IMG/VR virus record: IMGVR_UViG_3300028837_002504
Span: 1-39,640 of that record
Reading direction: 5' to 3' (one strand)
DNA from: a virus
DNA: 39,640 bases
Positions 8,398 to 33,308 of this stretch are shown here, in pieces. The notes under the pieces are model-generated. The model did not search any database. It was not told the DNA's origin and saw nothing but the letters and a program-made list of their open reading frames with translations. Position 1 is the first letter of the stretch. Every line of letters starts with the position of its first letter. The position numbers were made by a program, and so were the translations under genes.

Positions 8398-9277
8398 ACA
8401 GGCTGATGCTATCTTAACCAGCGACTGGCACTTACGTGAGGATACACCACCATGCCGTGTAGATAACTTCTGGAATGTACAGTGGGGTAAGGTTATGTTC
8501 GTTAAAGAACTGCAACGTGAACACGACTGTCCGGTATTACATGCTGGTGATTTGTTTCATCACTGGAAGCCATCACCATACTTGTTAAGTCAAGCAATAA
8601 TATATCTACCAGATCAATTCCACACTGTATATGGACAGCATGACCTGCCACAACATAATTTGGAATTGGCATATAAGTGTGGTATCAACACATTATATCA
8701 AGCTGATGTGTTAAACATACTGACACAATGCCATTGGCAAAAAAAACCAACAGAATATTGGAAAACAGATCCTGGAAATATTGATGAAGTATTAAGAATT
8801 AAAGATAAAACAACATTAGTCTGGCATGTTATGAATTATATCGGACGTCCTCCGTGGCCAGGTTGTGAAGCTCCACGTGCCAGCCGGTTGTTGAATAAAT
8901 ATCCGCAGTTTGATCTTATCGTAACCGGTGATAACCACAAACCTTTTACTGAGAGATATGAGGGTAGGCTGCTGGTTAATCCCGGGTCGTTGACTCGCCA
9001 GAGTGCGGATGAAACACATCGTCCACGTGTACACCTTTGGTATGCTGATAGAAATACTTTAGTATCCGTATACTTACCTATCGATGAGGATGCAGTATCA
9101 CGCGATCACATTCAGCAACAAGAGCAACGCGATGAAAGAATTGAGGCGTTTGTCAAAAGGCTAAATACTGAGTTCAGAGCATCGGTAAGTTTTGAGGAGA
9201 ACCTGGAACAATTCCTGCAAACAAACCGTGTAACAGAGAACGTGAAACAAGTAATATATAAAGCAATGGAAGAATGA
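8369..9277 (+). CDS. SbcD/Mre11-type metallophosphoesterase nuclease
   Basis: Nuclease partner of SbcC/Rad50. Starting at the ATG at 8369 (302 aa) it shows the calcineurin-like phosphoesterase motifs in order: SDWHL (D19, H21), HAGDLFHHW (D61), VYGQHD (89-92, with Q where GNHD is common), VTGDNHKPF and LVNPGSLTRQSADE. An in-frame ATG at 8303 would add 22 residues lying inside the previous gene and is less likely. It sits between the two halves of the Rad50-like ATPase and its stop overlaps the GH16 start by ATGA, so all these proteins are probably made from one message. The C-terminal 60 residues are helical and may bind the ATPase coiled coil, as in Mre11. Confidence 0.92.
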   Translation: MKRTQPITSKQADAILTSDWHLREDTPPCRVDNFWNVQWGKVMFVKELQREHDCPVLHAGDLFHHWKPSPYLLSQAIIYLPDQFHTVYGQHDLPQHNLELAYKCGINTLYQADVLNILTQCHWQKKPTEYWKTDPGNIDEVLRIKDKTTLVWHVMNYIGRPPWPGCEAPRASRLLNKYPQFDLIVTGDNHKPFTERYEGRLLVNPGSLTRQSADETHRPRVHLWYADRNTLVSVYLPIDEDAVSRDHIQQQEQRDERIEAFVKRLNTEFRASVSFEENLEQFLQTNRVTENVKQVIYKAMEE

Positions 9278-9861
9278 CAGCAATTATAAATTTCTTCATC
9301 CGGTTGTGGTTTTACCCACGGTATTTCTTTGGATTTGGGACACTTCGTCATCACAAAATTAACAGTATGTTCTTTAATAGTTTCAGTGTTAACGATGGAC
9401 AATGGATAGATAAATGGGGTTGGATACGGACCAGGGAGAAATTTCGCTATGGAATAGTATGTTTTTTCGCTCAGATGGATGGTGAGTTTCAGGAGAACTA
9501 TTGGCCGGCGCTGTGGATGGCTGAAAGTGGTGATACTTTTTATAATGAAATTGATATTGAACTTACCATAAAGAGCAGTCGTCATCCTTATCTAAACCTG
9601 GCTGTTTGGGACAATCGTGTCAACAGTGATCCTCACGGTAAAGTTAGCGTACACAAAAGTTTGCAATTACGCAACCAAAGATTAATAAAACAACTACGTC
9701 AGCAGTTTCATATGTATTATATAGATTGGAGATCACGTGGCGTGAAATTCTACATAGATGGACTGTTGTGTGGAATGTTATGGCAAGCACCACAGAATGA
9801 TATGCACATAGTGGTAGGATATGCAACTGTAACACAAATAGTAATGTATAATGATATTTAA
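9274..9861 (+). CDS. GH16-type glycoside hydrolase (concanavalin A-like fold)
   Basis: A 195-residue protein with the glycoside hydrolase family 16 active-site motif ExDxE: NEIDIELT, with E92 as likely nucleophile, D94 and E96 as acid/base. Other family features are YGIVCFFAQMDG and YWPALWMAESGD before it, and FHMYYIDWRSRGVKFYIDGLL after it, equal to the FHxYxIEWtpdxixfyvDG strand pair of GH16. GH16 enzymes cut beta-1,3 or beta-1,4 bonds in glucans and galactans, including sulfated ones. It is coupled by ATGA to the SbcD nuclease and lies in the replication operon, an unexpected place for a polysaccharide enzyme. The N-terminus has hydrophobic stretches (IINFFIRLWFYPRYFFGF) but no clear signal-peptide cleavage site. 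Confidence 0.8.
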   Translation: MTAIINFFIRLWFYPRYFFGFGTLRHHKINSMFFNSFSVNDGQWIDKWGWIRTREKFRYGIVCFFAQMDGEFQENYWPALWMAESGDTFYNEIDIELTIKSSRHPYLNLAVWDNRVNSDPHGKVSVHKSLQLRNQRLIKQLRQQFHMYYIDWRSRGVKFYIDGLLCGMLWQAPQNDMHIVVGYATVTQIVMYNDI

Positions 9862-22095: not shown

Positions 22096-22454
22096 CACAA
22101 ATATACTTTACGTAAAAACTCATTCGTTGATCCTAATGCTGGTGATTTATCAAACCGTCGTATCTTATACGCTCCATCTACATTTTTTGGATCTTCATCT
22201 ATTGTACTATCCAAATCACCTAAATATAACCATCCTTCTTCATCAACATCCTCTGTAACATACACAACAGCACGACTCACAAGTTCGTTTCCTTGTGCAT
22301 CGGTAAATACCTCGCGATGATCTTCCCAGCGACAATTTATTTCCTCCGGATACTTACTTCCAAAAGTTTGCCCTCCATATCCATCATTTGTTGGATCACC
22401 CCAATAAACTGCCGTCTGCTTACAAAGCCTCACTATAAAACTCTCAATTCCCAT
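22095..22454 (-). CDS. Head-tail joining (head closure) protein
   Basis: A 119-residue protein in the neck gene set. It contains VRLCKQTAVYWGDPTNDGYG, INCRWEDHREVFTDAQGNEL followed by VSRAVVYVTEDVDEEGWLYL, and a C-terminal YKIRRFDKSPAL. The central strand pattern C-W-----v-d--G-e--s-a-VyV matches phage head closure proteins. The start at 22454 (MGIESF) is preferred over one seven residues earlier. It overlaps the previous gene by 11 bases. Confidence 0.75.
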   Translation of the reverse strand: MGIESFIVRLCKQTAVYWGDPTNDGYGGQTFGSKYPEEINCRWEDHREVFTDAQGNELVSRAVVYVTEDVDEEGWLYLGDLDSTIDEDPKNVDGAYKIRRFDKSPALGSTNEFLRKVYL

Positions 22455-22830
22455 TATCTCTTTCCTTAATAGCAATCACCCTCGCTCGTCGTTTACCGCT
22501 CTCAGCCATTTTGCCCGTGTGATCAAGTGTTAACACCATTTGTCCGTATGGTGTGGAATGTAATCCCTTGTCCCATTTGCCTGTATATTTAATGCTTGCA
22601 TCACCGAGCTTCTCTGTCTCACTTGTACGATGACGTGATGAGGCTATCATATGAGCTGTAAACCAACGCTCAATCTCCTCCTGTAAAGTACTACCTATCT
22701 CAGTGTCGTCTTCAAACACATCACTTACCAACGCACTCGCCGCCGGAATATAATGTGTCGTTATATCTAATTCTGATATCTGGCAGTCATCCATTATTGC
22801 CAGTACCTTTGCTGCTGTTGTTAATGCCAT
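22444..22830 (-). CDS. Head-tail connector protein (gp6/DUF4054-like)
   Basis: A 128-residue mostly helical protein at the head end of the neck gene set, with TAAKVLAIMDDCQISELDIT, AASALVSDVFEDDTEIGSTL then EEIERWFTAHMIASSRHR, and GDASIKYTGKW. The order helix, 'ERWFTAHMIA', then a glycine-rich tail fits connector proteins that form a ring under the portal. The start is the ATG at 22830; its first 44 bases overlap the end of the APS-kinase-like gene. This overlap shows that the carbohydrate block is tightly embedded in the structural operon. Confidence 0.72.
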   Translation of the reverse strand: MALTTAAKVLAIMDDCQISELDITTHYIPAASALVSDVFEDDTEIGSTLQEEIERWFTAHMIASSRHRTSETEKLGDASIKYTGKWDKGLHSTPYGQMVLTLDHTGKMAESGKRRARVIAIKERDNGN

Positions 22831-23218
22831 CTTCAAATTGTTTATAAGTTATCAGTTCCAGTTCATCATCAAAAGGACGTTCATAAGTTGTACCCTCCCA
22901 CAACTTACCACCAGGTATGTATATTACCCGGCTACGTATCCATCGCCGTCGCATCTCATAACGCCACTCACGCAGTGGTGCAACAAATGCCATAATTACA
23001 ATATGTCCTTTCTTTTCAAGATGAGCAGCAGCATTGGCGGCACTTATAAGATTCTTCGTCCGCCCTTCATCACTGAAGTCCTTATTACCATGTTTTTCAC
23101 GCCACTCATCACCATCTATCACCGTCACTTTACATTCGTCTTCAGTCAATTCTTTGTACAATCGCTTAGCATAAGTTGTTTTGCCTGCTCCTGGTTTACC
23201 TGTTATTAAGTATATCAT
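22787..23218 (-). CDS. APS kinase-like (CysC-type) P-loop kinase
   Basis: Predicted to phosphorylate adenylyl sulfate to PAPS, the donor used by sulfotransferases. From the ATG at 23218 (one base after the upstream stop) the 143 residues show Walker A GKPGAGKT (7-14), DGDEWR (35-40, the APS kinase DGD-LR motif), DFSDEGRTKN (47-56; the family has FS-eDR--N), MAFVAPLREWRYEMR (76-90; family sFISPyR--R), and YERP (112-115; family YE-P). The usual RDPKGLY lid is replaced by PGGKLWEGT, so the protein is a short, diverged version; another small-molecule kinase is possible. Three sulfotransferases directly upstream strongly support PAPS supply as its role. Confidence 0.75.
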   Translation of the reverse strand: MIYLITGKPGAGKTTYAKRLYKELTEDECKVTVIDGDEWREKHGNKDFSDEGRTKNLISAANAAAHLEKKGHIVIMAFVAPLREWRYEMRRRWIRSRVIYIPGGKLWEGTTYERPFDDELELITYKQFEDGINNSSKGTGNNG

Positions 23219-23219
23219 T

Positions 23220-23945
23220 TTATCGTACTGTTTTTCTTTTTTCTTCTTCCTGACGTCGTGCATGCCAAAGTTTTGGATCAATAAACTGTAATACTTTACT
23301 CACATCCCACTCCAATCCTAACCATTCAATAGTCTCGTAGATTTGTTTATAATCAGCACGTATCATACGCTCAGGCCATACCACTTTACAATTCAGTCCC
23401 TCAGTTATCATCTCATTAAAACGTTGCTCATGCTGATGTATCCACCACAACCACCCTTCCTCTTCACTATCAGCACTTACGGCACGTTGTCTATCCTGGT
23501 TGTGGAATGCCCTCATAAACCCTGTACGCTTACATGAATTAATTATATCACTGGACTTACGACGTACAATTATCCATTTTGCATCCGGGAAGGCATAATG
23601 CCAAATAGGCCACATCAAACACATCTTTGCTCCTTTATACATCCACAATCCATCAGTATACCCTTGATCCATCATTACTTGTTCAACTTTTCTACGCCAA
23701 CCCGTTGGGATTGATAAATTATTTACATCTGGTAATGGATACTGTCCCATAGGATCAACACTAATCTGACGCAAATATGGTTTAACAATATCATTTCTCA
23801 CACGCGCATTTTCAAACATACCTCGCTGATTATTTCTGGTAGCACCAGACATCTCTCCACCAAAAGCACCACAGATGTTTATTACACCTGCTACCATACT
23901 GGTACCACTACGAGCACAACCTGTTATAAGTATCGGATCTATCAT
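23220..23945 (-). CDS. Sulfotransferase C
   Basis: A PAPS-dependent sulfotransferase of the P-loop type. The ATG at 23945 overlaps the upstream glycosyltransferase stop by ATGA, giving 241 residues beginning MIDPILITGCARSGTSMVAG; GCARSGTS (9-16) is the 5'-phosphosulfate-binding loop. Later WIIVRRKSSDIINSCKRTGF is the 3'-phosphate-binding segment (R-x-x-x-D-x-x-x-S pattern). An upstream in-frame ATG at 24005 would add 20 residues inside the previous gene. The region EEEGWLWWIHQHEQRFNEMI is near other phage sulfotransferases I recall. The acceptor is unknown; neighbours suggest a glycan. Confidence 0.8.
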   Translation of the reverse strand: MIDPILITGCARSGTSMVAGVINICGAFGGEMSGATRNNQRGMFENARVRNDIVKPYLRQISVDPMGQYPLPDVNNLSIPTGWRRKVEQVMMDQGYTDGLWMYKGAKMCLMWPIWHYAFPDAKWIIVRRKSSDIINSCKRTGFMRAFHNQDRQRAVSADSEEEGWLWWIHQHEQRFNEMITEGLNCKVVWPERMIRADYKQIYETIEWLGLEWDVSKVLQFIDPKLWHARRQEEEKRKTVR

Positions 23946-24688
23946 TTCCAGTATTGTTTTATCCATTCTTTCTGTATCTGGTGAGGACGTGGTGTACCAT
24001 GACAACTTACAATTCTCGCAGCTGGTGGCAGAGGACTATCAGAATTTTTCCGAACATGACGTTTGTAGCTTACGATCTGTTTTGGTGCAACCTGATCCCA
24101 ACGATCTGCAATGTCACCGACAACACGGCGAAACCAATAACGTTCACGACCACCAGTCACTTGCTCAGCCCAACGAACATCTTTTATGAAAGGATTCCAA
24201 AGCAAGTTTTCAGTCTCCTCGCCGGCGCGGAAACCTATTATATCACCATCCAATTTCCATTCTTCACCCATCTTGAATTTACTTCTTGCACAAAACAATC
24301 CGTCATAATCCATAATTCTCTTCAAACTTCCAACTATCACGATATCCAAGTCCAAACACAGAACCTGGTGTCCAAACAACCCAGCTTCTCTGCTGAACAT
24401 GTACATACGCGGTATTATCCCTTCACGTGTTACCATCCTAAATGGCCTGACTTCAATGTCAGGATTAAGCTTCAGCGGCTCATTAGTAAAGCAAATGAAC
24501 TTGAATGGCTTGTTGGTGAATCGCTTCACTCCCTTATAAAGGTTATTCACATATTTTGCAGGTAGGTAATCCTCAACACACCCGACCTTCTCGATGAAAT
24601 GCTGCTGGCGATTAACACGTCCTTCCTGCTCTTTATAACCGTATTGTTGCCAACGGTCACCTTGCCAATAAAAACATATCACATACAT
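23942..24688 (-). CDS. Glycosyltransferase C (DxD, GT8-like fold)
   Basis: A 248-residue nucleotide-sugar transferase candidate. The start at 24688 is supported by GGAGG 8 bases upstream. The opening MYVICFYWQGDRW and the DxD strand VLCLDLDIVIVGSLKRIM (D113, D115) match the two other transferases of the block, as does FKFICFTNEP. The DxD pair usually binds Mn or Mg with the nucleotide sugar. It is the most diverged paralogue, with an insertion of about 25 residues after the first strand. Donor and acceptor cannot be told from sequence. Its end overlaps the sulfotransferase start by ATGA, pairing the two. Confidence 0.78.
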   Translation of the reverse strand: MYVICFYWQGDRWQQYGYKEQEGRVNRQQHFIEKVGCVEDYLPAKYVNNLYKGVKRFTNKPFKFICFTNEPLKLNPDIEVRPFRMVTREGIIPRMYMFSREAGLFGHQVLCLDLDIVIVGSLKRIMDYDGLFCARSKFKMGEEWKLDGDIIGFRAGEETENLLWNPFIKDVRWAEQVTGGRERYWFRRVVGDIADRWDQVAPKQIVSYKRHVRKNSDSPLPPAARIVSCHGTPRPHQIQKEWIKQYWK

Positions 24689-25365
24689 AACTGTTCCTCC
24701 TTCCCGTAAGCCCGGCGTTTTAACCATGAAGCACACTCTGGATCACGAAACGAAACATCTCCCGGCTGCCCAGTAACAATAATAATATCTTTCGACAATT
24801 CATTTTCACTAACATGCCGCAGCGTATTTAATTTTATCATCCATCCATTAGGAAACACCGGCTGGTCTGGTATCCATGCACCCATCACATCCTGATCACT
24901 GCGGTAACGTAACATGTTTGACCGTGCATTCCTGCGGAACTTATCATATACCTCTGTCGTCGAACCTGGTGTAAATAACATCGTTGCTGCCTGATAATGA
25001 AGAATCGTTTTAGCCTCGAAGCCACGAAATCCTCGTGCGCAGGTTCTAAACATCACCAAATTGCCGGGATAATCCAGTATTGGTTGTAAATTGTTCACAA
25101 CATATGTATCAAGATCAAGATACAATGTACGCCCTTCAGGTAAGTCAGAACGGTGTAACTCAATTTTACTCCACCAACCCGGCCAGTTATGCTTCAGCGG
25201 TATCTTCTCAGCAGGTATTTTGGCTTCCATATCATTTGTTAAGCAATAAAATCGATATGGACGATCAATGTGCTTATCTACCGTCTGATGCAGTCGTACT
25301 ACGTCATCTACTGAAAAATCGCGACCACGAAACTTCCCTACCCAATATAAACACATTATATTCAT
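24679..25365 (-). CDS. Glycosyltransferase B (DxD, GT8-like fold)
   Basis: A 228-residue paralogue of the neighbours. The ATG at 25365 overlaps the upstream sulfotransferase stop (ATGA), giving MNIMCLYWVGKFRGRD; a longer start at 25392 would lie inside that gene. It shares FYCLTND, KHNWPGWWSKIELHRSDLP and the DxD strand TLYLDLDTYVVNNLQPIL (D84, D86) with glycosyltransferase A, nearly block for block. Later features are YRSDQDVMGAW and FPNGWMIKLN. It ends about 10 bases into the next gene. Acts presumably in the cytoplasm on a nucleotide sugar; the product is not known. Confidence 0.78.
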   Translation of the reverse strand: MNIMCLYWVGKFRGRDFSVDDVVRLHQTVDKHIDRPYRFYCLTNDMEAKIPAEKIPLKHNWPGWWSKIELHRSDLPEGRTLYLDLDTYVVNNLQPILDYPGNLVMFRTCARGFRGFEAKTILHYQAATMLFTPGSTTEVYDKFRRNARSNMLRYRSDQDVMGAWIPDQPVFPNGWMIKLNTLRHVSENELSKDIIIVTGQPGDVSFRDPECASWLKRRAYGKEEQLCM

Positions 25366-26018
25366 TGCTTCATTCTTCCTGGTTGTATCCATTGCCGTAC
25401 TTTCCTTAAATCAACTTTAATCTTTACAAAATCAAATAACTGCTGTATTTCTTCAGTACTACCTTGTGACACTTTAAAAACATCAACAGAAAGTGTACTG
25501 TTTGCTCGTCCCAACACTTGACGCTGTCTCTCCTGCAAGGCTTCAATAAAGTTACGTTTCATATTCTCTGGTCTACGTGCCATACGTGGATGACGATTCA
25601 TACTGTTAAGTACATATTTTACATCTCGCTGTGTCAACACCCAAAGTGCATCAGGCCATGCCCACATCCAGAACTTATAAAACATCAATGTCCATGAAGT
25701 TTTAACAAGCCAACGTTCATCATTCGGTAGTATATCTCGTTTTAATTCATTTTTTATCATTTCATAATAATCCTCATCCATACTCATATCCTCAGGTATA
25801 GGTACTGTCCAATTACGGTATCCTATCTTTGCAGCCTCACGCTTCATGATGGCTTTAATATCTTGATTCTCACTACCAAACTCCGGGTTCGTCCCAGGAT
25901 ACCACGTTGTACGTGCTTGCCCCACCCAAACACCGTGAATGTTCAACAATCCAGCCAGCATCGTTGTTCCACAACGTGGCGGACCGGCTATAAATATTGG
26001 TCTCTGGTCTATTGCCAT
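25362..26018 (-). CDS. Sulfotransferase B
   Basis: A 218-residue P-loop sulfotransferase: FIAGPPRCGTTMLAGLLNI with the PAPS 5'-binding loop PPRCGTT (13-19), and the 3'-phosphate-binding region WVLTQRDVKYVLNSMNRHPR. It is similar in plan to the sulfotransferase at 23220 but not a close copy. It lies between two glycosyltransferases, overlapping one by 10 bases and the other by ATGA, so the three are likely translated together. Substrate unknown. Confidence 0.8.
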   Translation of the reverse strand: MAIDQRPIFIAGPPRCGTTMLAGLLNIHGVWVGQARTTWYPGTNPEFGSENQDIKAIMKREAAKIGYRNWTVPIPEDMSMDEDYYEMIKNELKRDILPNDERWLVKTSWTLMFYKFWMWAWPDALWVLTQRDVKYVLNSMNRHPRMARRPENMKRNFIEALQERQRQVLGRANSTLSVDVFKVSQGSTEEIQQLFDFVKIKVDLRKVRQWIQPGRMKQ

Positions 26019-26704
26019 AATTCATGTACTAAAGGATACCGATGTGCTGCCTGAATGTTTTTCTCAGGCATGCACAGCATAACTTTCATATTATTATCCA
26101 CAACGATAGAGTCCTTACCATCTTTACACATACCAAGTTTTTTAATCCATCCTTGAGGAAATTTTCCAAATCGAGGAAACATCGCTTTGAGATAATCCTG
26201 ATCACCTCTATATTTCATCATCCAATAATCTTTTCTCTTTATAAACTTTTTAAATATCCGTGCTTTAGTAGGATGTTTAAATACCATAACCGATGAGTTG
26301 TACCCACGATGCAACCCTCGTATATCTTTTTCATCTTCCCTCACAAACGTATCACAAATAGTAATATCGTTATCATATTGCAACAGCGGCATCAAATCAC
26401 CTACAATAATAACATCTAAGTCCAAGTACAACACTTTACCTTGTCTGATAGGCAAATATTCACGAAATATTTCTAACTTACTCCACCATCCAGGAAGATT
26501 ATGTTTTAACGATATTACCCTACAACCTGGAACACGAATATCAGTATTCGACAAACACACAAACTCATGTGGCACGTTTAATCTCCGACGCACCATGTTA
26601 CCCAATCGTTCAACCCAACGCTCATCATAATTAGGATTATCATACTTGTGTGCCTTAAACTTACCTTTCCACAATACACATATTACTGTTATATTGTCTT
26701 CCAT
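26009..26704 (-). CDS. Glycosyltransferase A (DxD, GT8-like fold)
   Basis: A 231-residue enzyme starting at the ATG at 26704 (MEDNITVICVLWKGKF). Conserved blocks shared with its paralogues are FVCLSNT, KHNLPGWWSKLEIFREYLP and the DxD strand VLYLDLDVIIVGDLMPLL (D95, D97), then YRGDQDYLKAMFPRFGKFPQ and GWIKKLG. GT8-type enzymes use an aspartate pair for metal and nucleotide-sugar binding. The start overlaps the previous gene by 16 bases. Donor sugar and acceptor cannot be read from the sequence. Confidence 0.78.
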   Translation of the reverse strand: MEDNITVICVLWKGKFKAHKYDNPNYDERWVERLGNMVRRRLNVPHEFVCLSNTDIRVPGCRVISLKHNLPGWWSKLEIFREYLPIRQGKVLYLDLDVIIVGDLMPLLQYDNDITICDTFVREDEKDIRGLHRGYNSSVMVFKHPTKARIFKKFIKRKDYWMMKYRGDQDYLKAMFPRFGKFPQGWIKKLGMCKDGKDSIVVDNNMKVMLCMPEKNIQAAHRYPLVHELWQ

Positions 26705-27894
26705 ACATACCAAACATTATCAATTGTTAATTTAAAATCGTCTTTAAAATATTCCCTTACTGCTTGTTCAACACCAGGAAACTTCTTATGTCCAAAATCA
26801 TGTCCACAAACCAGCCCTCCTCGCCTAACTTTTAGAAACCATAAACGTATATCTTGCAAACACTCTTTGTAAGAATGATCAGCATCAATAAATACAAAAT
26901 CCAATGATCCATCTTTTACCTGACGTACAACTTGTTGACTCTTGCCTTCCAGCACAGTCACACGCTTATCGTGAACGTGATGTTTAACACGTCGCCACCA
27001 CAACCGCCGAGCCTTCTGGCAGGTGCAATATGTAATATCGTCACCTGGTAATATGTCAGGTCCCGGATAATATGCTACCTGTATAAGATGTAGTTTACTA
27101 TTGCGTTGAAGCAACTCCATTGCTGTCTTACCAGTCCCTGTACCTACCTCAGCCCCTATTTTGAAATTATGGTGCTTTATAATCTCATCCAAAAAATCAA
27201 ATCTCTTCATATCTTGATTCGCTATCTCAGAAAACCATCCCATCTCAGTCTTATAGTCCCAGTATTCCAATAAGTCAAACAATTCGTGACACTGGCTAAA
27301 TTGATCATATATTCTTACCGGACGTTCCCTCCACTGATTTATTTTATCTGTTGAAACAGGACGCACTCCATTCAAACGAACTCTCAATGGTTCAGGAATA
27401 TCATGCATATGAAAATCTTTAAACCAACCATCATATGATAACTCAAAGTATTGTCCAATTTCTTCTTGCATTCTCATAGGATCACTCACTAAATCCTCGT
27501 ACCGACAAAGAAAATAATCATCCATGTTTCTTATTGCTTTGTCAAATCCTAATAGACCTATTGTTGGATTACCACGATTGTGATAGCATAAATCCCAATC
27601 AACGCGGAAACCTGATCTACCATCTACACTTGATGTCAATACTGCCCTCGGATCACGAACACAGACAATAAAGCCAACATCGGGAATTTGTTCCCGAATC
27701 AATATTGCGTCAAAAACATCATCAGAAGATTTAGTCACTTTCGACTCTTTGGAGTGCTCTCCATACGCTTCGCGTGCCTGCATCTCCTTATCGTAAAATC
27801 TGTATCCCACAACACTACCGCGCATCATACAATACAACAGTGTTGTACCACTACGCGGGTAACCCGTTATAACTATATGATTATACTTTACCAT
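26689..27894 (-). CDS. Fusion of sulfotransferase (N) and SAM methyltransferase (C)
   Basis: A 401-residue two-domain protein. The N-terminal part (1-220) is a sulfotransferase: PAPS 5'-loop GYPRSGTT (11-18), FIVCVRDPRAVLTSS (75-89) for the 3'-phosphate, and YFLCRYEDLVSDP. The C-terminal part (about 235-401) is a class I methyltransferase of the Methyltransf_24/TylF kind: motif I KIGAEVGTGTGKTAMELL (246-262), LDFVFIDADHSYKECLQDI (331-349) and RRGGLVCGHDF. Such a fusion would let one enzyme add sulfate and methyl groups to the same or linked sugars. It lies upstream of the alternating glycosyltransferases and sulfotransferases. No internal start that would separate the halves was seen. Confidence 0.8.
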   Translation of the reverse strand: MVKYNHIVITGYPRSGTTLLYCMMRGSVVGYRFYDKEMQAREAYGEHSKESKVTKSSDDVFDAILIREQIPDVGFIVCVRDPRAVLTSSVDGRSGFRVDWDLCYHNRGNPTIGLLGFDKAIRNMDDYFLCRYEDLVSDPMRMQEEIGQYFELSYDGWFKDFHMHDIPEPLRVRLNGVRPVSTDKINQWRERPVRIYDQFSQCHELFDLLEYWDYKTEMGWFSEIANQDMKRFDFLDEIIKHHNFKIGAEVGTGTGKTAMELLQRNSKLHLIQVAYYPGPDILPGDDITYCTCQKARRLWWRRVKHHVHDKRVTVLEGKSQQVVRQVKDGSLDFVFIDADHSYKECLQDIRLWFLKVRRGGLVCGHDFGHKKFPGVEQAVREYFKDDFKLTIDNVWYVWKTI

Positions 27895-28633
27895 TGTGGA
27901 GTATCTCCTTTACTGTTACCTTCTTAAACTGTTCAATTGCACTATCCGGTGATGCATTCAGTATTGTAATTCCTCTCTTTTCAGTATCACAGGCAATATC
28001 TGGGAAGCCACGTAAATGACGAGCAAATGGCAGGTGTTTTACTTGATTAGGATTCACTATTCTCCCTCGCTTCGTTTTGTGAGGTTTACGGCCAACAACT
28101 CTGTAAAGGTCATGCCAGTGTTGTCGTTGGTCACTACCGACCTTCATATCAAAACCTAACAATATAATTCTCTCACAACCTGCATTCGCAGCAATACTTA
28201 TCGCCGCTGCTCCACTGTTACCATTCCAACTGACCATCCGCTGATTGTCACTAATACCATGTGAATGGCTCTTATCCTTCGCCACATACTTAATATTCTC
28301 ACCATCATAAGTACCACTGCTAAACTTACTGTTGCACGTAACTTTCAAACCTGGAAACTCGGCAAGCTGTTTTTGATAAGAAACAAAAAACTTATTGTCA
28401 CCGAAAAATACCATGTCGATCCAATCACCTATCAGAAATGCTACGTTAATTGCAATAACATGCTTACCATGGATTGCAGCCATGTAAGGAGAATACATAC
28501 TGGGTGGGTTATCACCTCGAACGATACTGTCAATCACATCCTCCGGAACTCCGAATTGCTGTGGCATCGAGGGACCTCCGCCAATTATCCAGCATTCTCC
28601 TCCCTCCCACATTCTCGGGACGTTCCAAGTCAT
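27881..28633 (-). CDS. MptE/DUF115-like protein, Rossmann-type
   Basis: A 250-residue protein with a GGGPSM loop (18-23), HVIAINVAFLIGDWIDMVFF, KVTCNS, RMVSWNGNSGAAAISIAANA then CERIILLGFDM and WHDLY. This order matches DUF115/MptE-like and motility-accessory-factor-like proteins, often found with sugar-handling genes and in phage head operons. Related archaeal MptE is a 6-hydroxymethylpterin kinase, but here a sugar or nucleotide-sugar role seems likelier from context. It starts in an ATGA overlap with the previous gene and overlaps the fusion gene by 14 bases. Confidence 0.68.
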   Translation of the reverse strand: MTWNVPRMWEGGECWIIGGGPSMPQQFGVPEDVIDSIVRGDNPPSMYSPYMAAIHGKHVIAINVAFLIGDWIDMVFFGDNKFFVSYQKQLAEFPGLKVTCNSKFSSGTYDGENIKYVAKDKSHSHGISDNQRMVSWNGNSGAAAISIAANAGCERIILLGFDMKVGSDQRQHWHDLYRVVGRKPHKTKRGRIVNPNQVKHLPFARHLRGFPDIACDTEKRGITILNASPDSAIEQFKKVTVKEILHNGKV

Positions 28634-28971
28634 GACAGGTCATTAACCAGCTTTTGTGCTCCTTCTTTTGTAAGGTATCCATCGTTTACGACCTTGTCGT
28701 TACCATCAACCACATTATATCTTCCTCCACCACGATGGACAGGAGTGTAAGTAGTCTTAACAACATTCTCAGGTGTGACTTCTTCAGGTAAACCATCTAA
28801 TGGTATAACCACGTCACGAAACGCTTTGGGTATCTCGTCAGGACGGGCGTGAAACACCTCTCCCGGCTTAATTATCCGGTATTTATTTCGTCCTCCTTTA
28901 TATCCTATTTTCAATCGTAATGATCCTCCACCGTCTTTACGCCAGCGGATTTTTCCATCATCTCTTTCCAT
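28630..28971 (-). CDS. Small conserved phage protein after the capsid gene (113 aa)
   Basis: A 113-residue protein starting MERDDGKIRWRKDGGGSLRL with IIKPGEVFHARPDEIPKAFR and DVVIPLDG in the middle. The GGGSLRL... IKPGEvF-ArpdEIPkaFrD-v-pld block is one I associate with small phage head proteins next to the capsid gene. It ends with a helix (LTKEGAQKLVNDLS). It may be a head completion or decoration factor; the role is not known. A Shine-Dalgarno AAAGGAG precedes the start, after the hairpin that follows the capsid gene. Confidence 0.6.
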   Translation of the reverse strand: MERDDGKIRWRKDGGGSLRLKIGYKGGRNKYRIIKPGEVFHARPDEIPKAFRDVVIPLDGLPEEVTPENVVKTTYTPVHRGGGRYNVVDGNDKVVNDGYLTKEGAQKLVNDLS

Positions 28972-29033: not shown

Positions 29034-30131
29034 TTATGCCAGGTGAGTTACCCCACATCGTCCATCCCTGTCGGAACGAATCTGTGGAACCTGGATAGTC
29101 AATACTTTGTACTTAGTAACAAACTGACCTTCTTCTTTCCACTGCACGTTCTGCAACGGAAGACCTGTTATCAGCCTTACAACATCCGAGGTCATTTGTA
29201 CCAACAAAACATTATCTATAGTCAGACGATCAATAACCTTGATGTCTTTAATACCACTAATCTTCAAGATACGATCCCGAATGGTAGTGCCAGGTGTTCT
29301 TGTATCGTAATCCTTATCCAACACCGTTTCATACTCATCCGGTATGTACAGCATCCACGGTCCATGGTGACGAGCATCAATACTGGCCTGCTTCATAGCA
29401 ATCACATCAGCGAGTATTTTGGCTGCTGTCGTAGACGAGTCATTCCAGTCAACATCCATAGTCACCTGGTTACGGTCAGGATGATTTAAATAACCGTAAA
29501 TCGTATTACGATTACGGTCATCCGTTTCACCATAACTATATGTCGTGTTTGTAAATAACATATCTTCCAGTTTCTCCCTTACTCTCCTTGCTGCCATCTC
29601 AGCCGAAATGGTATCCAATGAATTTCCCAATTTACGACTTGCTTCCAACACACGAGCATTAATCTCATAATCCACATGGATTATTGGGATTGGTAAATAG
29701 TTGAATTGAAATGTCGGACGATCTCCTACGGATCGCGTAATACCATCCATAGTGATATCAGCCTCGAAGGCATCATTTACGTCGTGCCATTCCAAAACAG
29801 TTGTTCCCATCGCGTTCCCAAGCGGATATGTCAATCCATTAGAAACCAGATCATCAATCCCACCAAGACGCTCTCTGGCAACCTTCAATAAAGCATCATC
29901 CAACTGTTTCCATTCATCACGCCGCAATGTAGCGTTCGTTACAGGTACAGTATAGTAGTTCTTCTTATCGTTTGGGTCACCATTACCTTTATATACCGCG
30001 ACAAAAGCTCCTTTATCAGTAATATAAGGGCGTAATGATCCAGGATCTAACCTACCTTGTCCTTGCATGTAAGCAGCCAGTTCACCTTGTCCACCACCAC
30101 CTTTCATCAATAAATCAACACTTGTCTTCAT
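29034..30131 (-). CDS. Major capsid protein
   Basis: A 365-residue protein expected to have the HK97 fold. The start is set by AGGAGG six bases upstream of the ATG at 30131; the frame open to 30149 merely reads through that ribosome site. Features are a short basic/glycine N-terminus (VDLLMKGGGGQGELAAYMQG), FQFNYLPIPIIHVDYEINAR, TISAEMAARRVREKLEDMLF, NQVTMDVDWND and HHGPWMLYIPDEYETVLDKD, then RILKISGIKDIKVIDRL and DVVRLITGLPLQNVQWKEEG. This ordering is common in phage capsid proteins resembling encapsulins. No protease-cleaved delta domain is evident. Preceded by a decoration protein gene, followed by a hairpin. Confidence 0.9.
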   Translation of the reverse strand: MKTSVDLLMKGGGGQGELAAYMQGQGRLDPGSLRPYITDKGAFVAVYKGNGDPNDKKNYYTVPVTNATLRRDEWKQLDDALLKVARERLGGIDDLVSNGLTYPLGNAMGTTVLEWHDVNDAFEADITMDGITRSVGDRPTFQFNYLPIPIIHVDYEINARVLEASRKLGNSLDTISAEMAARRVREKLEDMLFTNTTYSYGETDDRNRNTIYGYLNHPDRNQVTMDVDWNDSSTTAAKILADVIAMKQASIDARHHGPWMLYIPDEYETVLDKDYDTRTPGTTIRDRILKISGIKDIKVIDRLTIDNVLLVQMTSDVVRLITGLPLQNVQWKEEGQFVTKYKVLTIQVPQIRSDRDGRCGVTHLA

Positions 30132-30137
30132 TTTTTT

Positions 30138-30143
30138 CCTCCT
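30138..30143 (-). promoter_or_regulatory. Shine-Dalgarno site of the major capsid gene
   Basis: On the minus strand AGGAGG within AAAGGAGGAAAAAA stands six bases before the ATG at 30131. It is among the strongest ribosome sites of the window and shows that the capsid protein begins at that ATG, not at the in-frame GTG at 30149. Confidence 0.8.
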
Positions 30144-30151
30144 TTCCACTT

Positions 30152-32678: not shown

Positions 32679-33308
32679 TTATATACGTTTTAAACTTTTT
32701 TCATAACGGAAAAACACACACTGACACTGTTCAGGCCATTCGGCCAATCGCGTAAAACATCCTTCGTTCTCCTCAATGAACCTGACCGGTGCTTTAAACA
32801 ACTTCTGCTTACTGGGCTTGCTCTTATAAAAGTAATAATCCAGCAACCCAAGTATGGTCACACCAGGAATCCAATATTCATGTAATGCAAATACAGTAGC
32901 TGAAAATACCGGGTCACGCTTTGGAGCATCAAATATACACACCTCGATCGGCTCTCCTGTATAATGAGTTATCGTTTTCTGTATTGACCCTTTTACAGGA
33001 ATCACATTCTTGTATACCTGCGTAACATTATCAATAAACAGTGGCATCAGATCCTGATCCTGCTTTATTCTTATTCCCTGGTGTTTTGCTTTTTCAATTT
33101 CCATGTCATTAGCAATCCAGCGGTCATAAGCATAAAAAGGCAATTTATATCCAGCCTCGACCAATCCCTCCAGTAACGCCACTGCCGTAGCACCCAACCA
33201 TGAACCTAATTCCATAGCAATTCCACGGCCTGTCCATTGACGTCCTACCTCTCGCAGGTAGTCCTGAACGATCTTTGGTGTCATTGATGGTATATTATTT
33301 ACTGTCAT
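32679..33308 (-). CDS. SAM-dependent methyltransferase-like protein (class I, TylF-like)
   Basis: A 209-residue protein with a Rossmann-type start: GRGIAMELGSWLGATAVALL (motif I ELGSWLGA, 33-40), FYAYDRWIANDMEIEKA (acidic strand end), VTQVYKNVIPVKGSIQKTIT and VCIFDAPKRDPVFSATVFAL (motif with FDA), as in macrocin O-methyltransferase-like proteins. It lies between the minor head protein and the protease gene, with ATGA overlap on one side. It may act on the same sugar products as the distant sulfation block, or on a head protein. Metal ligands of TylF could not be fully placed, so the activity is not proven. Confidence 0.65.
   Translation of the reverse strand: MTVNNIPSMTPKIVQDYLREVGRQWTGRGIAMELGSWLGATAVALLEGLVEAGYKLPFYAYDRWIANDMEIEKAKHQGIRIKQDQDLMPLFIDNVTQVYKNVIPVKGSIQKTITHYTGEPIEVCIFDAPKRDPVFSATVFALHEYWIPGVTILGLLDYYFYKSKPSKQKLFKAPVRFIEENEGCFTRLAEWPEQCQCVFFRYEKSLKRI

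Follow-up and report, generated by a model that had tools for sequence, protein, structure and literature searches.

Introduction

Glycosylation of phage virions is already known. The capsid proteins of mycobacteriophages Che8 and Rita bear glycans (PMC11256854 citing Freeman 2023), and phage Corndog carries methyltransferase and glycosyltransferase (GT) genes between those for the portal and the protease (PMC4351075). In the glycan cluster of the amoebal giant viruses Moumouvirus australiensis and Cotonvirus, a bifunctional sulfate adenylyltransferase (SAT)/adenosine 5′-phosphosulfate (APS) kinase of 642 aa, Ma457, occurs with a sulfotransferase, Ma461; sulfation is predicted there, not shown (PMC10117803). 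The present analysis concerns a cassette of sugar and sulfation genes on the minus strand of a stretch of DNA of 39,640 nucleotides from an uncultured tailed phage (positions 1 to 39,640 of IMG/VR virus record IMGVR_UViG_3300028837_002504; hereafter the window). Its eight genes, at 22787-28633, lie with overlapping or abutting ends between the capsid and neck genes. The original prediction, made from the window alone, spoke of seven genes, its own list summing to eight (1+1+3+2+1). The enzymes it named are all present, and their families are backed by Pfam, phrog and PDB profile matches and by folds.

The cassette is read here, with a probability of about 0.57, as a late-operon unit that would build, on a protein of the phage particle, an oligosaccharide with sulfate and methyl groups; the likeliest carrier is the major capsid protein (MCP) or a component of the head or neck. 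Like the mycobacteriophages, the window phage combines glycosyltransferases with a methyltransferase and, as in Corndog, the glycosyltransferase genes sit inside the structural operon. It differs in the slot that is occupied, and the portions of the mycobacteriophage papers drawn on here mention no sulfotransferase or APS kinase. Its likeness to the giant viruses is the association of a predicted enzyme forming 3′-phosphoadenosine 5′-phosphosulfate (PAPS) with a sulfotransferase, which in those viruses belongs to a cluster for particle (fibril) glycans (PMC10117803). Unlike the window protein, however, the giant virus enzyme is neither compact nor lid-less, and its gene is not part of a tailed-phage head operon. 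No phage paper pairing a sulfotransferase with APS kinase or PAPS was found in the open-access literature.

Linkage of the sulfotransferase and kinase genes

All coordinates given below are on the minus strand of the window unless stated otherwise. The sulfotransferase ST2 (23220..23966) is the conserved last enzyme ahead of the neck genes and was identified by motifs, fold and neighbourhood. It is followed by a compact protein of the APS kinase family (22787..23218), the start of which was set by alignment to relatives. A search of IMG/VR with ST2 gave 317 relatives, from which 80 loci were fetched. ST2 lies less than 700 bases ahead of a neck gene in 78 of these, and in the remaining two the contig ends first. 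The MptE-like gene, the opener of the cassette, is present in all 26 ST2 loci that show the capsid gene, and the kinase in 31 of the 80.

An independent search with the kinase gave 59 loci, which fall into 40 clusters at 90% identity with three distant matches (33%) excluded. ST2 adjoins the kinase in 46 of the 59 loci; three more break off at the kinase yet show the neck gene. The original prediction had named, as a sign against it, related phages in which the genes lie unlinked and scattered. Instead, the kinase was found within 1 kb of ST2 in 33 of the 40 non-redundant clusters, in two gene orders, and one locus (L088) has a gene order identical to that of the window. Its recurrence in dozens of divergent phages means that the arrangement is not due to chance. 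The kinase is nevertheless an optional extra, absent from most phages with ST2: among slots recruited by the capsid protein it occurs in only one of the 15 complete ones with ST2. Its linkage to sulfotransferases stands, and the parts that recur are ST2 and the MptE-like gene.

The backbone of the kinase tree is weak. The two gene orders cluster on it, and the kinase-first label needs about five changes; independent acquisition of the kinase in the two orders is not claimed.

Some loci have an APS kinase beside a sulfotransferase or sulfotransferase-like gene other than ST2. In an unrelated phage (L176:4183-6378) the kinase adjoins a different Sulfotransfer_3 gene and a gene for NeuB, a nonulosonic acid synthase. 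A second, dissimilar APS kinase of 155 aa (Pfam 6e-19) lies inside a slot ending with ST2 (L135:3135-4345), where it overlaps by 4 bases an open reading frame (ORF) unrecognised by Pfam, in which the motif PQSGTW resembles those of sulfotransferases.

Three further loci were recorded beside these. At L170:5346-6402 and L178:4509-5395, a small HxGH nucleotidyltransferase (CTP_transf_like, with a weak ATP-sulfurylase match in L170) precedes the compact kinase; the two are possibly a minimal APS/PAPS-forming pair. Near the kinase in both is a GT9 protein, the C-terminal half of which bears sulfotransferase-like motifs. In another unrelated phage (L166:6001-7016), the kinase directly follows a terminase-like gene, and the ORF after it has the sulfotransferase-like motifs QSRTGHNFI and IRDFENWLAS and is not recognised by Pfam.

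A slot of changing content between capsid and neck

The slot is bounded in the window by two structural genes. At its left edge is a small conserved post-capsid protein (28630..28971), next to the MCP (29034..30149; DUF6260, PF19774 8.3e-21), the presumed acceptor. At its right edge is a neck protein of the DUF4054 type (22444..22830), with PF13262 at 3.3e-4, below the cut-off, and the virion structural protein family phrog_302 at 9.5e-4.

IMG/VR relatives were gathered by the capsid protein rather than by the cassette, and 21 distinct complete slots were counted by hand, with L035 dropped as a copy of L034. An MptE-like gene is present in 18 of these, ST2 in 15, both in 13 and neither in one (L014). 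Slot length ranges from 264 bases in L014 to 8.7 kb in L008. The other contents include domains of glycosyltransferase families GT2, GT11 (fucosyltransferase-type), GT29, GT47 and GT9, FkbM and other methyltransferases, GDP-mannose dehydratase/epimerase and cupin domains. The slot is thus refilled with differing sugar enzymes from one relative to the next, around an MptE-like gene and ST2 that are usually retained.

In L014 the MCP, post-capsid and neck genes are contiguous and the small post-capsid protein is retained. Brevundimonas phage MaInes and Halorubrum phage Hardycor1 are isolates whose capsid proteins are related, and both have a small ORF at the position of the post-capsid gene; small genes run from the capsid gene to the neck and tail genes, with no annotated sugar gene among them. 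The earlier statement that the block replaces no structural gene therefore holds. Because the slot contents vary, and because the slot is without a sugar gene in these three phages, the cassette is best described as cargo in a fixed place.

Two variations in layout were also seen. A stretch resembling the small post-capsid protein lies inside large slot ORFs (L005:12514-14634, L043:12181-13125 and L032:12280-14637), as if fused to the cargo. At L074:1173-2943 and L076:6926-8693 the order is first neck gene, MptE, ST2, second neck gene, with the pair shifted past a neck gene.

The capsid relatives come from metagenome-assembled genomes of Bacteroidota/Balneolales, Zixiibacteriota, Marinimicrobia, archaea and others, an assortment too scattered and prone to mis-binning to name a host. 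A DNA-level comparison of the block with 50,697 phage records gave no match. In tblastn searches of phage isolates there was no match for ST2, one weak match for MptE and two partial matches (39-40%) for the kinase, and by these searches no isolate carrying the cassette was found.

Enzymes of the cassette

The kinase matches the Pfam APS_kinase family (PF01583) at 6e-18, covering profile positions 4-95 of 152 only. When its profile is compared with solved structures, 24 APS kinases rank first (best 4e-18). The structural model has a predicted local distance difference test (pLDDT) score of 89, and its first 33 Foldseek matches are APS kinases or APS-kinase-like domains (best 1.7e-8); close superposition is limited to the first ~100 residues. 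In CysC of Mycobacterium tuberculosis, the P-loop, the LDGD motif, Phe492 and Arg497 bind ATP and APS (PMC4373884), and the kinase residues were matched to these through profile alignments. Across 22 aligned sequences, D35 and D37 of the DGD motif and R53 are invariant, the P-loop glycine and lysine are kept, and position 48 is Phe or Tyr, the aromatic of a DF/DY motif. By predicted fold and APS pocket the protein belongs to the APS kinase family, although without one of its defining elements, the lid discussed below, and an APS-to-PAPS activity is predicted. Both checks proposed for it at the outset, profile search and structure prediction, place APS kinases nearest.

ST2 matches Sulfotransfer_3 at 2.1e-4, below the cut-off. 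Its alignment of 19 sequences has invariant R21, S22 and G23 in the 5′-phosphosulfate-binding (5′-PSB) motif RSG[TS], and invariant R138 and S146 in the 3′-PSB motif. The model (pLDDT 94) has sulfotransferases as all of its first 43 Foldseek matches, with E about 1e-4. Profile and predicted structure therefore agree with the original assignment, and the PAPS-binding motifs are invariant. The function of phage sulfotransferases has been described as unclear (PMC10580990). Two more are encoded in the block. ST1 (25362..26018) matches Sulfotransfer_3 at 2.2e-10 and has the PAPS motifs PRCGTT and R...S, and ST-MT (26689..27894) is a Sulfotransfer_3 domain fused to Methyltransf_24 (Pfam 2.1e-10 and 2.3e-16).

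The three glycosyltransferases have DxD motifs and match one phage glycosyltransferase family, phrog_1962, at 6e-23 to 3e-20. GT1 (26009..26704) is GT8-like, with Glyco_transf_8 at 1e-5, phrog_1962 at 5.8e-23 and the motif LYLDLDV. GT2 (24679..25392; phrog_1962 2.1e-21) and GT3 (23942..24688; 2.9e-20) have no Pfam match; the start of GT3 at 24688 was picked for its AGGAGG. The slot opener, an MptE/Maf-like protein (27881..28633), is the presumed first-step glycosyltransferase. It matches PF01973 at 1.8e-4, below the cut-off, and phrog_4603, labelled ‘alpha-2,3-sialyltransferase’, at 1.5e-28. It has been reported that Maf proteins, the central domain of which is pfam01973, O-glycosylate flagellin (PMC11339370). 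By its weak Pfam match the MptE-like gene may belong to the family of these Maf flagellin glycosyltransferases (Maf_flag10 domain), which act on a structural protein; the phage protein differs as a single domain of 250 aa.

Proposed pathway and alternative explanations

In the proposed pathway, ATP sulfurylase of the host would make APS, which the compact kinase, by its family, fold and linkage, is predicted to phosphorylate to PAPS beside the enzymes that use it. The Maf-like MptE protein may attach the first sugar, and GT1-GT3, as members of a glycosyltransferase family, would extend the chain. Sulfate from PAPS would then be added by ST-MT, ST1 and ST2, the families and PAPS motifs of which fit this role, to a putative sugar acceptor, and the methyltransferase domain would cap a sugar. 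The chain is probably carried by a virion protein, since the enzymes look soluble, the placement between head and neck is strict and the opener has a putative Maf kinship. The proteins of the block lack a clear membrane segment by hydrophobicity, the sole borderline stretch being in MptE; this fits an acceptor in the cytoplasm.

Several results weigh against this reading. The MptE-like protein scores 21.7 bits against PF01973, for which the cut-off is 34.6, with weak matches in 17 of 19 family members, and its profile has no significant solved relative in the PDB. The parts of the cassette do not always travel together: L034-L036 and L052 have ST2 between capsid and neck in a slot without MptE or a glycosyltransferase, and L004 has MptE alone. 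ST2 is about as similar to tyrosylprotein sulfotransferases (TPSTs) as to sugar sulfotransferases. Finally, the CysC lid carries Arg559, which binds ATP, and Lys562, which stabilises the transition state (PMC4373884), and this stretch of ~30 residues has no counterpart in the alignments of the kinase family. Kinase activity is not assured for that reason.

The cassette could instead alter a surface glycan of the host, such as lipopolysaccharide (LPS) or capsule, or a lipid-linked precursor, with a receptor change that blocks superinfection or aids release and a late position that reflects timing. The glycosyltransferases, methyltransferases and epimerases of the slots do resemble surface-polysaccharide genes, and sulfotransferases acting on cell-surface glycans exist. 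However, the window block has no flippase, GtrA/B-type membrane protein or polymerase, and a strong hydrophobic segment is found in only four of 186 slot proteins. The strict capsid-neck placement across divergent phages and the Maf-like opener, which points to a protein acceptor (PMC11339370), also make a host glycan an unlikely target.

The likeness to TPSTs raises another explanation, in which ST2, as a protein (tyrosine) sulfotransferase, acts directly on a virion protein, and the neighbouring genes glycosylate the particle independently. TPSTs are the best profile matches among solved structures, although weak at 7.5e-4, and TPSTs, human ones among them, make up 13 of the first 16 fold matches. 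ST2 also occurs in slots without glycosyltransferases (L034, L052). Against this, mycobacterial STF9 is the joint best fold match and STF1 is near the top, with every match distant at 10-16% identity, and ST2 usually closes a row of sugar enzymes. Direct tyrosine sulfation is considered rather improbable.

For the kinase, the missing Arg559 and Lys562 would be accounted for if it phosphorylated another substrate, a sugar or a different nucleotide, within the same glycan pathway. The C-terminal motif YIPGG.LW.GT.YE.P, which is specific to the compact family, can be viewed in the same light. The invariant Trp of its LW.GT.YE.P portion might, on the other hand, substitute for the second stacking aromatic. 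Such a change of substrate is very unlikely, as the P-loop, DGD, the DF/DY aromatic and the arginine for the APS adenine are all kept, and APS kinases are the only nearest relatives by both profile and fold.

Least probable of all is a role in assimilatory sulfate reduction for cysteine supply, the published view of viral cysC (PMC10914622, PMC9529941), since the kinase stands beside ST2 in either order, 19 of 20 sampled kinase records lack PF01507 (cysH/cysD), with weak pieces in one, and 15 of 20 have Sulfotransfer_3 matches; in this view the place of the kinase beside sulfotransferases would be incidental.

Proposed supply of the sulfate donor

The same records bear on the source of APS. 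No ATP sulfurylase scored above the cut-off in any of 20 kinase records, a slightly different set from that used for PF01507, and the window has neither; the records may be incomplete, so these absences are only indicative. Given the linkage to ST2, the lack of ATP sulfurylase and the near absence of cysH/cysD, the compact kinase most likely supplies the sulfotransferases, not assimilation. With no ATP sulfurylase encoded, the phage would only convert APS made by the host. The description of the block as self-supplied is thus retained for the predicted APS-to-PAPS step only.

The window kinase and the viral cysC auxiliary metabolic genes (PMC10914622, PMC9529941) share the phage-encoded APS kinase family, and short viral CysC models of 109-135 residues have been reported (PMC9529941). 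Unlike those, the window type has sulfotransferase genes as its linked neighbours, and cysH is nearly always missing. Some of the viral genes classed under “sulfur metabolism” may therefore act in sulfation. A broader proposal is more tentative and is held at somewhat less than an even chance. It states that a large group of uncultured tailed phages bears sulfated glycans on heads or necks made with cassettes that contain a PAPS-forming kinase of the phage, and that compact ‘cysC’ genes, perhaps many of the listed viral cysC, supply particle sulfation and not host sulfur metabolism. If so, a negatively charged glycan coat would extend what is known of phage surface chemistry, and ecosystem models would have to reinterpret one class of viral auxiliary metabolic genes. 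The fixed slot joins sulfotransferases, cysC-type kinases and glycosyltransferases beside capsid genes in a common, testable role, and ST2 ahead of a DUF4054 neck gene may serve as a marker for finding phages with sulfated particles.

Transcription and other genes of the window

Terminator-like sites in the region number five, against 5.2 expected from shuffles, and promoter-like sites show no excess over the shuffled expectation. As neither exceeds expectation, the cassette and the structural genes are likely on one late transcript.

Two other genes of the window were noted. A GH16 glycoside hydrolase lies on the plus strand at 9274-9861, where the replication genes end (Pfam 1.9e-10; nearest solved structure ULam111). 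A Methyltransf_24-like gene at 32679-33308, between the genes for MuF and a DUF2213 protein, is found in few relatives only (L083, L132).

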